A stretch of DNA of 39,211 nucleotides from Bacillus sp. J37 (GTDB taxonomy: Bacteria; Bacillota; Bacilli; Bacillales; Bacillaceae). Under the pieces are notes generated by a model that saw only the letters and a program-made list of their open reading frames with translations, was not told where the DNA came from and ran no database searches. The stretch is from NCBI RefSeq assembly GCF_000518865.1, contig NZ_JAEK01000047.1, forward strand, positions 1 to 39,211. The letters are read 5' to 3'. Below are positions 226 through 39,211 of the stretch, one piece after another. The translations under genes and the position numbers were made by a program. Every line of letters starts with the position of its first letter. Within the stretch, counting starts at the first letter, position 1.

Positions 226-306
226 ATTGAACCGCCGTATACGGAACCGTACGTACGGTGGTGTGAGAGGGGCGAAAATAATTAGATTATTTTCCCTCTA
301 CTCGAT
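1..306 (+). mobile_element. Group II intron, 3' end (partial)
   Basis: After the maturase stop codon, 231-262 folds as domain V: ACCGCCG pairs with CGGTGGT, there is a CG bulge, and the tip TACG-GAAC-CGTA closes the hairpin. Domain VI is 266-299, with AAAATAAT (275-282) pairing ATTATTTT (286-293) and AGAGGG (266-271) pairing CCCTCT (294-299). An unpaired A at 300 is the likely branch point, seven bases from the proposed intron end at CGAT (303-306). The 3' exon is non-coding and leads into a family A repeat. The 5' part lies outside the window. Confidence 0.85.
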
Positions 307-524: not shown

Positions 525-1643
525 TTGAAGAAAATTATTGTCATTGGAGCGGGAATTCTTGGGGCGTCAACTGCTTATCACTTAGCAAAAGCTGGTGCTT
601 ATGTTACGGTCATTGACAGGAAGGATCGGGGACAAGCAACAGATGCAGCAGCTGGAATTGTTTGTCCATGGCTATCTCAACGACGTAACAAAGCATGGTA
701 TCAGCTCGTGAAAAATGGTGCTCGTTACTATCCTGAATTAATAAAGAAACTTGAAGAAGATGGAGAAAAAGAAACAGGATATAGTCGAGTAGGAGCGATT
801 AACTTACATCAAGATCCTGAGAAATTAGAAAAAATGGCTGAACGTGCTCGGAAACGCAGAGAAGATGCACCGGAAATTGGTGAAATTACGATTTTAACTC
901 CTAACGAAACAAAAGCATTATTTCCGCCACTATCAAAAGAGTATGGTGCTGTGTATGTGAGTGGTGGAGCGAGAGTTAACGGTAGAGCTTTGCGTAATGC
1001 TTTAGTACAAGGAGCGAAAAAGAATGGCGCCACTTTCATTGAAGGAAATGCCATTTCACTTATTCGGGAAGGTCATACCATAAAGGGCGTAGAAATAGAA
1101 CATGATCGATTACCGGCTGAGCAGGTTCTTATTACTGGCGGGGCTTGGTCAAACGAATTAATCCAGCCATTAGGAAAGAAATTTCAAGTTTCGCCTCAAA
1201 AGGCTCAAATTGTTCATCTTGAAATGTCAAATGAAGATACAAGTAAATGGCCGGTTGTCATGCCTCCAAATAATCAATATATTTTAGCTTTTGATCAAGG
1301 AAGAATTGTTGTCGGGGCAACACATGAAGATGAGGCAGGCTTTGATGAGCGTGCAACTGCAGGAGGACTTCATGAAATTTTGACAAAGGCACTGGAGATT
1401 GCCCCAGGCTTACATGACAGCACACATCTTGAAACAAGAGTTGGATTTCGTCCATTTACACCAGGTTTTTTACCTGTCATCGGTCCACTGCCTGAATTTG
1501 AAGGACTCCTTCTGGCAAACGGATTAGGTGCCTCAGGTTTAACAAGTGGTCCATATCTAGGAATGGAGCTCGCAAACCTTGCATTAGGGCAAGAACTAAA
1601 TCTTGATTTAAGTCTATATCCAATTGAAAATGCTGTTGAATAA
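525..1643 (+). CDS. yurR: FAD-dependent oxidoreductase, D-amino-acid dehydrogenase/glycine oxidase type (YurR-like)
   Basis: A DadA/DAAO-family flavoprotein of 372 residues, the length I know for B. subtilis YurR. The N-terminus carries the dinucleotide-binding motif VIGAGILGAS (residues 6-15) with an acidic residue at 31 ending the second strand. The C-terminal part has the family's RVGFRPFTPGFLPVIG and NGLGASGLTSGP segments, which close over the flavin. Expected activity is oxidation of an amino acid or imino acid in the cytosol; the substrate cannot be read from sequence. Translation starts at a TTG, with AAAGGTG at 511-517 as ribosome binding site. It is a single-gene unit followed at once by a strong terminator. 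The upstream neighbour is the group II intron, so transcription must start in 307-510. Confidence 0.88.
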   Translation: MKKIIVIGAGILGASTAYHLAKAGAYVTVIDRKDRGQATDAAAGIVCPWLSQRRNKAWYQLVKNGARYYPELIKKLEEDGEKETGYSRVGAINLHQDPEKLEKMAERARKRREDAPEIGEITILTPNETKALFPPLSKEYGAVYVSGGARVNGRALRNALVQGAKKNGATFIEGNAISLIREGHTIKGVEIEHDRLPAEQVLITGGAWSNELIQPLGKKFQVSPQKAQIVHLEMSNEDTSKWPVVMPPNNQYILAFDQGRIVVGATHEDEAGFDERATAGGLHEILTKALEIAPGLHDSTHLETRVGFRPFTPGFLPVIGPLPEFEGLLLANGLGASGLTSGPYLGMELANLALGQELNLDLSLYPIENAVE

Positions 1644-12250: not shown

Positions 12251-12439
12251 GTACTTAGTGTAGGTGTCTAGCTCCAGCGCCTAGTCCCGAAGCATAGGAC
12301 GTGCAAGTGCAGTCTTTGCGACAGGACGTCGCGTTCTTAGACTGCCTAGGTCTAGCCAATTTGGAATTGAAGGCAAAGAACGCCTTCTATTCCAAATCGC
12401 CTTTTGCAGGTCGGGGCTGGTCAAGGCGCTTGCGCTTTT
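12251..12439 (+). repeat. Family A dispersed repeat, copy 2 (long form)
   Basis: Opens with TAGGTGTCTAGCTCCAGCGCC and ends with CAAGGCGCTTGCGCTTTT; the ends can pair (AGCGCC with GGCGCT). It contains a GCAGTCT/AGACTGC hairpin with an inner GCGAC/GTCGC stem, and the core hairpin TTTGGAAT-T-GAAGGC / GCCTTC-T-ATTCCAAA. It occupies most of the gap behind yfmL. Confidence 0.85.
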
Positions 12440-14479: not shown

Positions 14480-14579
14480 TCTAATAGTAAATATATTCCC
14501 AGAATCGTTAATAAATCTCCAGAATCGAAAATATAACTTCAAAACCGGAAATAAATCCACAGAATCGAAAATATGTACT
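14480..14579. repeat. Array of five units with an exact 20-bp period (CAGAATCG head)
   Basis: CAGAATCG occurs at 14500, 14520 and 14560, with the related CAAAACCG at 14540 and a weaker unit at 14480, all exactly 20 bp apart. The head is conserved, followed by a loosely kept AAATA and a variable tail. It lies just beyond the GNAT-gene terminator. The unit sequence is unrelated to the array at 1709-1828, but period and design are the same. Together with the terminator it explains most of the gap 14355-14631. Confidence 0.72.
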
Positions 14580-14602: not shown

Positions 14603-14632
14603 AAAAAAGGCGGGATTCAATAGAATCCCACC
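14603..14632 (-). terminator. Terminator of the GNAT gene
   Basis: On the minus strand GGTGGGATTC pairs with GAATCCCGCC around TATT and is followed by TTTTTT. The stem begins at the stop codon. Confidence 0.85.
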
Positions 14633-15189
14633 TAAGCCTCTTTCAGCTGCTGATCATCAACTTCAGATGCATTATGGTATTTATAAATTGTATATTGATC
14701 TCTAGTAATTTCAAACAAATGAAAAATGTCTTCTCCATTGTTAATTTGTTCTAGTAAATGTGCTCTTGTTTCATTGGCATTCACAACATAAGGTAGTTTT
14801 TCTGCGGCTCTAGTTGAGCGGATGTTTTGTTTGCGAATTCGCAAGAAGATTGTTTCGATATCTAATTCGTAGAATAGCTCGTTAAAGAAAGCGTCTTTTG
14901 CCAGCTGATTATAGCCTTTGCCGTGATACGGTTTACCGATCCAGGTGCCTAAAAAACCTGCTTTGTCTTGGATATCAAACAAACTGATTGTGCCGATTGG
15001 AGAGCCCCATTCATCTAAAATGGTACGTGAAATCAATTCACCTCGTTCTTCAGCTTCAATCGTTTGTTTTGTTAGAAATAGATATTCTTCAAAAGAATTT
15101 GCTTTATGACGCACAAATGGGAAGACATCAGGGTGAACCATGTGTTCATAAAGTGTATGACTATCATAAATATCACGTTTTTTTAGCAT
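14632..15189 (-). CDS. GNAT-family N-acetyltransferase (RimJ/RimL-like)
   Basis: A 185-residue Acetyltransf_3-type GNAT. The acetyl-CoA loop appears as GTWIGKPYHGKGYNQLAKDAF (around residues 93-113), followed by the typical LDIETIFLRIRKQNIRSTRA helix-strand. It transfers an acetyl group to an amine; the target (ribosomal protein, tRNA-bound amino acid or small molecule) cannot be read off. A longer frame begins 51 bases upstream, but the ATG at 15189 has GGAGGGA at ideal spacing and matches the family start. That ribosome binding site lies inside a CCCTC/GAGGG hairpin, and the mRNA leader carries a tRNA-like fold (15277-15343), so translation is probably regulated by leader structure. Confidence 0.85.
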   Translation of the reverse strand: MLKKRDIYDSHTLYEHMVHPDVFPFVRHKANSFEEYLFLTKQTIEAEERGELISRTILDEWGSPIGTISLFDIQDKAGFLGTWIGKPYHGKGYNQLAKDAFFNELFYELDIETIFLRIRKQNIRSTRAAEKLPYVVNANETRAHLLEQINNGEDIFHLFEITRDQYTIYKYHNASEVDDQQLKEA

Positions 15190-15195
15190 CTGGAT

Positions 15196-15254
15196 CCCTC
15201 CAACCTGAGGGCAGACTCCACGTGATATGGTCGTCCTCACCCTCGAAATTTTTT
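15196..15254 (-). promoter_or_regulatory. RBS-sequestering hairpin and its competitor in the GNAT leader
   Basis: On the minus strand CCCTC (15211-15207) can pair with GAGGG (15200-15196), which is the ribosome binding site of the GNAT gene. The same CCCTC can instead pair with an upstream GAGGG (15244-15240). That upstream GAGGG is also the 3' foot of a 14-bp stem with CCCCGAAATTTTTT (15284-15271), one mismatch. The three pairings exclude one another, as in a translational switch. The structure is read by eye; energies were not calculated. Confidence 0.55.
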
Positions 15255-15276
15255 ATGTTGATTTACCTTCAAAAAA

Positions 15277-15343
15277 TTTCGGGGTGGGAATCGAACCCAC
15301 TAGAACCAGTAAAGCTGGTGGCGCACCATTTGCCTTCCCAATA
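15277..15343 (-). ncRNA. 67-nt tRNA-like structure in the GNAT leader
   Basis: Reading the minus strand from 15343: TATTGGG, AA, a D-arm-like GGC-AAATGGTGC-GCC, an anticodon-arm-like ACCAG-CTTTA-CTGGT, a four-base variable loop TCTA, a perfect T-arm GTGGG-TTCGATT-CCCAC, then CCCGAAA. The last seven bases pair with the first seven (six of seven, one wobble). Arm order and lengths are those of a tRNA. It departs by a three-pair D-stem, a five-base loop in place of the seven-base anticodon loop, and no CCA end (a T-run follows). It is therefore not a normal tRNA gene; it is a tRNA relic or a tRNA mimic within the leader. Confidence 0.6.
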
Positions 15344-15610
15344 CTAGATTTAATTGTGTTTTCATATAAAAGCATTGCTTCCATGAAGTATCATACGGCA
15401 TTTTAAATGAAAAAGATACTCCTTTTTTGTCGAATAAAAAAATATTTTTTTTATCGTACAATAGTTGTTGATTTGGCCAACATTCTGATATCCTGGTAAA
15501 TTATTCTGCTTGGAAAACATACTAATATCATAAGTTTTAGCGCGTTAAATTAAAAGAGCTACAAAGAAGGCTGACGAAAAACAAAACAATAGTGAGATAA
15601 TATTATTTTG
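15344..15610. other. Intergenic region, leader promoter zone
   Basis: No coding frame is visible. It must hold the promoter of the GNAT leader on the minus strand; candidate -10 words there are TATGAT (in CCGTATGATAC near 15391-15396) and TATATGA near 15365, neither with a good -35. An A/T palindrome-like stretch lies at 15434-15456. No terminator for the amidohydrolase gene, which ends at 15611, is recognised. Confidence 0.4.

Positions 15611-38905: not shown

Positions 38906-39211
<306 letters not shown>

Follow-up and report, generated by a model that had tools for sequence, protein, structure and literature searches.

In the thrS operator of Escherichia coli, the gene's own synthetase binds the leader through anticodon mimicry and represses, and the T-box riboswitch binds a tRNA. 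The yjdF (azaaromatic) riboswitch places a tRNA-like four-way junction in the leader and activates translation; according to the sections of the report available (PMC9142559), in the OFF state its P4/T-loop segment is base-paired to the ribosome binding site, and acetyltransferases are mentioned among the genes under its control. The available part of a crystallographic account of yjdF (PMC10987639) describes pairing of the conserved GG of L2b with J4/1.

We analysed a 39,211-nt stretch of DNA from Bacillus sp. J37 (contig NZ_JAEK01000047.1; 'the window') in which a gene for a 185-aa GNAT acetyltransferase (14632..15189, minus strand, ATG start) is preceded on the same strand by a leader combining a 67-nt tRNA-like domain (15343-15277) with mutually exclusive helices. 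Judged by sequence comparison, the tRNA-like element is a real, widespread cis-regulatory RNA, for which we found no description in the literature searched. Its parts, their conservation and covariation, the mutual exclusion of its helices and its tight link to one GNAT gene are computed results. We consider it likely that this leader acts in cis to switch translation ON, with a tRNA-like cloverleaf as its sensor, triggered most likely by a small molecule linked to GNAT.

A sequence-only reading of the window had listed tRNA parts in order, and inspection of the window letters located every one of them on the minus strand. The sensor domain spans 15277..15343, where a covariance model of the element (R1, described below) scores the window copy at 97.4 bits. 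Acceptor-like pairs between 15343-15337 and 15283-15277 form at six of seven positions, with an A-A mismatch and one U-G, and include GGG (15337..15339), the 5' strand of a 3-bp closing stem, P1, whose partner is CCC at 15283-15281. A D-like arm follows, GGC-AAAUGGUGC-GCC (15320..15334; stem 15334-15332/15322-15320, 3/3 pairs), with GG in its loop, and then an anticodon-like arm, ACCAG-CUUUA-CUGGU (15305..15319; stem 15319-15315/15309-15305, 5/5 pairs), whose stem covaries and whose loop is free in length. A 4-nt variable loop (15304-15301) leads to the T-arm, GUGGG-UUCGAUU-CCCAC (15284..15300; stem 15300-15296/15288-15284, 5/5 pairs). The whole leader folded better than shuffled sequences (z = −3.30, with 1 of 200 shuffles as good). 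The 67-nt domain alone was unremarkable in energy (z = −1.16, 27 of 200 as good), so the case for it rests on comparison.

By DNA similarity the leader was present in 21 of 21 genus genomes and 43 of 80 family genomes. A GNAT profile built from 51 GNAT proteins (threshold E up to 1e-30) matched exactly the same 43, leader and gene being both present or both absent in all 80. Members found by plain DNA similarity yielded an alignment of 23 distinct domains (A1), from which R1 was built; 46 of its 70 columns are invariant among domains whose GNAT proteins are down to 54% identical. At E up to 1e-10, R1 matched 304 of 397 order genomes, representing 106 of 136 genera, with one copy per genome except in G151, which has three. 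Among the matches listed in a DNA pattern scan of named genomes were Oceanobacillus, Halobacillus, Neobacillus, Metabacillus, Anoxybacillus, Parageobacillus, Psychrobacillus, Domibacillus and other genera, as well as Priestia megaterium.

Relaxing the threshold to E up to 0.01 brought the order total to 344 of 397 genomes, the additional ones being weak matches. Nine weak matches from the order and class searches were fetched (24-31 bits; R1 rerun on five of them). Eight lay on tRNA-Gln, -His or -Gly genes, and at the ninth, L240, ARAGORN reported no tRNA. Strong matches outside the order were confined, in the class search, to seven genomes of one family (G462, G503, G554, G713, G745, G768 and G808). 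In the phylum search 7 of 398 genomes were matched at E up to 1e-7, six of them within the class; the seventh, G845, the sole match outside the class at that threshold, is a real tRNA-Asn and was rejected as an element. Elements scored 67.7-97.4 bits among the matches listed, and the real tRNAs encountered scored 40.4 bits at most.

Covariation was assessed on 222 element records, in which some element places had been fetched more than once, reduced to 146 distinct domains and aligned with MAFFT. Because the parse of these domains demanded GGG, GGC/GCC, UUCGAUU and CCC, the invariance of those letters was judged on A1 instead, and there the T-loop UUCRANN, the D-loop GG and the D-arm stem were each invariant in all 23 domains. 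The D-arm stem is nearly fixed overall, its variants among 20 low-scoring loci being GGC/GUC in L246 and L254 and a mismatch in L250. The junction linker reads AA in 144 and AAA in 2 of the 146 domains, under a parse that admitted two or three A only, and AA in 23 of 23 A1 domains.

Pairing was formed in 98.0% of 2,475 cells over the 146 distinct domains. Six pairs vary on both sides, giving 70 double-change cells; shuffles gave 14.6, and none of 500 was as high. Sliding the partners by 1-3 columns lowered pairing to 31-53%, with at most 36 double changes. The T-arm shows compensatory changes in three of five pairs with 100% of its cells paired, occurring as GUGGG/CCCAC, GUAGG/CCUAC, AUGGG/CCCAU and GCGGG/CCCGC, together with one GUGGG/CCCAU that retains a G-U pair. 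Double changes affect three of six pairs in the anticodon-like arm, which keeps ACC/GGU at its base and varies freely beyond it, its loop ranging from 3 to 14 nt in a simple ungapped parse. Two of the three closing-stem pairs and all D-arm pairs never vary in alignment A3 and are therefore uninformative on pairing.

The seven-pair acceptor of the sequence-only reading survives in its letters, six of seven pairs forming in the window, but found no support as a functional part. Each pair of the inner GGG/CCC is formed in 144 to 146 of the 146 distinct domains, with no covariation. The four outer pairs are formed in 47, 73, 44 and 79 of 149 distinct sequences, compared with 47.0, 73.6, 45.1 and 66.4 expected from independent columns, which is chance level.

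These patterns bear on whether a decayed tRNA gene has simply been caught in the leader, the main alternative raised by the sequence-only reading. The tRNA-like parts stand in order, and both ARAGORN, which found 0 tRNA genes in the window, and Rfam, whose best match at the domain is tRNA-Sec at 17 bits, below a cut-off of 47, reject a working tRNA, as decay would have it; near-invariance and compensatory changes across the order exclude such a relic, to which we assign a probability close to nil. The element has the UUCRANN T-loop and the D-loop GG of functional tRNAs but lacks their model score, 7-bp acceptor and 7-nt anticodon loop. Its likeness to tRNA (RF00005, RF01852) extends to R1 matches on a tRNA-Asn at 39.6 bits and on two viral-contig tRNA-Met(CAU) genes at 34.9 and 40.4 bits, and the D-arm of the first of these viral genes, GGCAAAUGGUGAGCC, is the D-arm of 4 of the 146 element domains. 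It differs from tRNA in its 3-bp closing stem, its loop of 3 to 14 nt, an A in place of U8 and the lack of CCA after the stem. By its T-arm, D-loop GG and the D-arm shared with a viral tRNA, descent of the element from a tRNA gene is plausible. The viral contig itself (L261), the sole one found to match R1, carries its tRNA-Met(CAU) genes at 1616-1690 and 1804-1887 and was rejected as an element because the match falls on these two real tRNA genes.

Upstream of the domain lie a T-tract, CTTTTT (15415-15410), and a conserved promoter-like (−10-like) motif, GTATGAT (15390..15396, minus strand). With related genomes counted at full weight, GTATNAT occurs in 127 of 203 upstream regions compared with 14.8 in shuffled ones, and the combination CTTTTT-N8-18-GTATNAT in 68 of 203 compared with 0.4. 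Scans for the sigma-A consensus upstream of the element gave no excess. The pair of motifs appears promoter-like, not a plain sigma-A consensus, and could also be a regulator site. Transcription likely starts upstream of the tRNA-like domain; the sequence-only reading had named a start downstream of 15277 as fatal to its proposal, and the conserved motif upstream of the element speaks against such a start, the start itself being predicted between about 15390 and 15345. The U6 run is missing from some lineages, and its interpretation as a terminator was therefore abandoned.

The 3' side of the cloverleaf is also one strand of a competing (OFF) stem. Its 5' strand (15271..15286, minus strand) overlaps the CCC and the T-arm 3' strand of the tRNA-like fold, and its 3' strand (15238..15254) ends in GAGGGUG, which doubles as an anti-sequestor. 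The sequence-only reading had put this stem at 14 bp; it is present, but at 16 bp (11, a bulged A15243, then 5). Farther downstream, UGCCCUC (15207..15213) can pair with GAGGGUG, leaving the ribosome binding site open, or, through its CCCUC, with GGAGGG (15196..15201), the ribosome binding site itself, 6 nt before the ATG at 15189-15187, hiding it. Both short pairings that had been proposed, GAGGG (15244-15240) with CCCUC (15211-15207) and CCCUC with GGAGGG (15201-15196), form at five of five positions.

At least 8 of 10 core competing-stem pairs were found in 186 of 187 distinct leaders, although two of these (L154 and L212, which have a different platform) are spurious; the sole leader missing its partner, L188, has a loop below the search minimum. 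As the partner tested was each leader's best complement, the percentage paired is inflated, and we preferred to count double changes and compare them with shuffled versions of the same segments. Once the 7 of 187 leaders with fewer than 9 of 10 pairs had been set aside, the other 180 contained 77 double-change cells, whereas 500 shuffles averaged 12.9 and reached 28 at most. Swapping partners between leaders proved a weak control, 145 of 935 swaps still reaching 10 of 10 through shared A/T runs. In some leaders the stem has been replaced with its pairing kept, as in GAAUAAUA (L152), GAAUUAAU (L215) and UAACGA/UCGUUA (L248).

L170 carries a coupled change, with a GCGGG/CCCGC T-arm and GGGCGGG in the competing stem, such that one strand covaries with two partners. 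This coupling is limited to one lineage: the outer extension beyond GG(G) is lost in seven GUAGG/CCUAC leaders and kept in one of three AUGGG/CCCAU leaders. Shortened platforms between the domain and the ribosome binding site (L154, L244, L251, L260 and L114) are misfits with the switch model in its details. With the competing stem included, compensatory changes, the check that the sequence-only reading had called for, appear in three elements of the leader: the T-arm, the anticodon-like arm and this stem.

We imposed either the cloverleaf or the competing stem on 184 leaders (L154, L188 and L212 left out) and computed the accessibility of the ribosome binding site. It was unpaired at a mean of 0.62 with the cloverleaf forced compared with 0.23 with the competing stem forced. 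The cloverleaf gave the higher value in 178 of the 184 leaders, and in 121 the difference exceeded 0.3. Opening was absent in the remaining six (L047, L050, L153, L160, L177 and L229). When the stretch between the domain and the ribosome binding site was scrambled, the means were 0.38 with the cloverleaf and 0.41 with the competing stem, with a higher value for the cloverleaf in 80 of 184 leaders and a difference above 0.3 in 11. For the window leader itself the values were 0.51 and 0.20. Forced-state folding was substituted for an earlier platform test that scored 5-mers with G-U allowed; that test reached sums of 10 in 149 of 184 leaders and also in 400 of 920 scrambles, and had no discriminating value, since T-rich stretches will pair with any sequence.

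Conservation, covariation and forced-state folding together support the three-way switch of the sequence-only reading and the direction given to it, in which the tRNA-like fold frees the ribosome binding site. The leader thus has what is looked for in a riboswitch: a conserved sensor domain, and a platform with mutually exclusive helices at the ribosome binding site. The competing state was favoured by 8.2 kcal/mol on average (2.3-19.2), a gap biased toward that state, since up to 14 pairs were imposed for the cloverleaf and up to 10 for the competing state, and tertiary contacts were ignored. The greater stability of the competing state means that the cloverleaf seems to need a stabiliser.

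That the leader switches between these states in the cell, the direction in which it does so in vivo and the nature of its trigger are inferred. The sensor would consist of the 3-bp closing stem, the D-like arm with its GG loop, the free-loop anticodon-like arm and a true T-arm. Once stabilised, the cloverleaf would occupy its 3' strand CCCACCC; GAGGGUG would then be available to UGCCCUC, and the ribosome binding site would stay exposed. Without such stabilisation, CCACCC together with GAAAUUUUUU, which comes next, would pair with AAAAAAUUUCGAGGGUG, dismantling the T-arm and the closing stem, and with the competing stem formed CCCUC would be left to cover the ribosome binding site. The trigger would be bound in the near-invariant four-way junction, comprising the AA linker, the AAAUGGUGC loop and UYUA.

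The cloverleaf might instead be a cis-tRNA that enhances translation by acting directly on the ribosome, or a substrate for tRNA processing by RNase P, with the competing stem merely tuning the outcome. A 3-bp closing stem would make a poor RNase P substrate. Action of this kind would leave the covarying competing stem and the anti-sequestor unexplained and seems exceedingly unlikely, even though in vitro translation is reported to have risen 2- to 6.3-fold when tRNAs were grafted ahead of a Shine-Dalgarno sequence (PMC9142559).

The link between element and gene is tight. Of 222 element records, 220 have a same-strand GNAT gene downstream; in the two remaining, L164 and L181, the element lies within 150 nt of the slice end. 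The gene also follows in 20 of 20 chosen low-scoring loci. In the loci examined the fold has thus been kept ahead of orthologous GNAT genes, a condition on which the sequence-only reading had made its proposal depend. An amidohydrolase gene upstream of the element is present in some loci and missing in others. On the 3' side of the window's GNAT gene, 14490-14567 (minus strand) holds three near-copies of CGATTCTGGRGATTTATT, with 0.14 expected by chance.

The lone exception among fetched, testable loci is L271, the third element copy of genome G151; the other two copies are each followed by a GNAT, at 64% and 59% identity to that of the window. The fetched 3-kb stretch at L271 contained no GNAT, and the next same-strand gene encodes a DUF5698/DUF2179 protein (746-1288, minus strand), 231 nt after the T-loop of an element near 1551. 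This copy might be a stray, or a second target that hints at the ligand; a single exception, confined to one genome, is compatible with either of the leading explanations, in which the trigger is a small molecule or a protein.

Protein-binding leaders, more typically than metabolite riboswitches, are tied to what is essentially a single orthologous gene, as this element is. The cloverleaf could then be read by a protein (the GNAT, a T-loop-modifying enzyme or another tRNA-elbow binder) in a protein-sensing switch resembling thrS. Strict co-occurrence with GNAT in the family points the same way, the T-loop and D-loop GG fit recognition of a tRNA elbow, and R1 matches real tRNAs at up to 40.4 bits. 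Nevertheless, a protein that stabilised the cloverleaf would turn translation on, opposite to the usual autorepression; the full acceptor, the 7-nt anticodon loop and the 3' CCA are missing; and nothing in the structural comparison of the GNAT hints at RNA binding. On balance we regard a protein reader as unlikely.

The specific suggestion that a tRNA-acting GNAT senses itself found no support. Nothing among the structural neighbours of the enzyme points towards tRNA, and by stabilising the tRNA-like fold the GNAT would boost its own synthesis, which would be unusual for autoregulation. Sugar, ribosomal-protein and polyamine acetyltransferases rank equally among those neighbours, which therefore allow no substrate call, families outside the listed rows being possible as well. 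Within the preferred reading, a switch triggered by a small molecule, our first guess at the trigger is a small molecule that the GNAT acetylates, or one that signals a need for the GNAT.

No Rfam 15 family, in scans of the window and 20 leader loci, and no description in the literature searched fits the element. At E up to 1, the only matches at the element in the 20 loci were 17-nt tmRNA T-arm fragments, at 15.5 bits and in three loci. Elsewhere in the window, the scan marked a Bacillaceae-1 RNA (RF01690) at 12291-12356 (minus strand; 37.7 bits compared with a cut-off of 35), a group II intron domain (RF00029) at 230-306 (plus strand; 46 bits) and the start of a 16S rRNA gene at 38907-39211 (plus strand), cut by the window end. 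Identity as a T-box was rejected, as the T-box core AGGGUGGNACC occurs in 1 of 187 distinct leaders and the Rfam scans of the window and 20 loci reported no T-box match. In that single leader, L077, the anti-sequestor reads AGGGUGGUACC, probably by chance.

Kinship with yjdF was weighed separately. The element might be a distant branch of that riboswitch with the same ligand class, given the shared mechanism (a tRNA-like four-way junction, ON logic and a P4/T-loop segment) and the acetyltransferases placed under yjdF control in the sections available (PMC9142559). However, neither covariance model matches the other's sequences: RF01764 was missing from the matches at E of 10 or below for window positions 15150-15420 and at E of 1 or below for 20 leader loci, and R1 found nothing up to E 10 at nine yjdF loci. 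The AA or AAA junction linker likewise argues against this kinship, which we judge highly unlikely. R1 also scores strongly in seven of the nine sampled order genomes that have yjdF, at a place away from the yjdF locus.

We hold it about evenly balanced whether the element is a previously undescribed riboswitch class, found in most sampled order genomes, whose tRNA-body sensor was recruited from a tRNA gene and senses a widespread GNAT-modified small molecule. Such a class would have kept the elbow and T-arm, lost the acceptor and anticodon, and be akin to yjdF only in mechanism. An RNA this conserved across an order, with no Rfam 15 match in the window and 20 loci scanned and tied to an enzyme of unassigned substrate, is a strong orphan riboswitch candidate, and its trigger, once found, would also suggest the role of the GNAT enzyme. 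Such a case would open the questions of how a tRNA gene turns into a switch and whether enzymes that modify tRNAs also work on mRNAs.

Set against the known systems, the element shares with the T-box a place in Bacillota leaders, AGGGUGG in an alternative hairpin and the tRNA theme, but the T-box binds a tRNA and this RNA resembles one. Like the E. coli thrS operator, it is a tRNA-like leader domain that would control translation of the adjacent gene; unlike thrS, it has no anticodon, and its folding should activate, not repress. With yjdF, as far as the available sections of the published accounts describe it, it has in common a leader position, a tRNA-like four-way junction and translational ON logic. 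It differs in having a T-arm and D-arm as in real tRNAs, a GNAT as its gene, and a linker of two or three A without an extended purine-rich J1/2. Its OFF pairing would moreover run through a relay, the anti-sequestor, whereas that of yjdF, in the same sections, goes straight to the ribosome binding site. The element would be a second case of a tRNA fold used as a regulated leader, and one nearer to real tRNAs in sequence.
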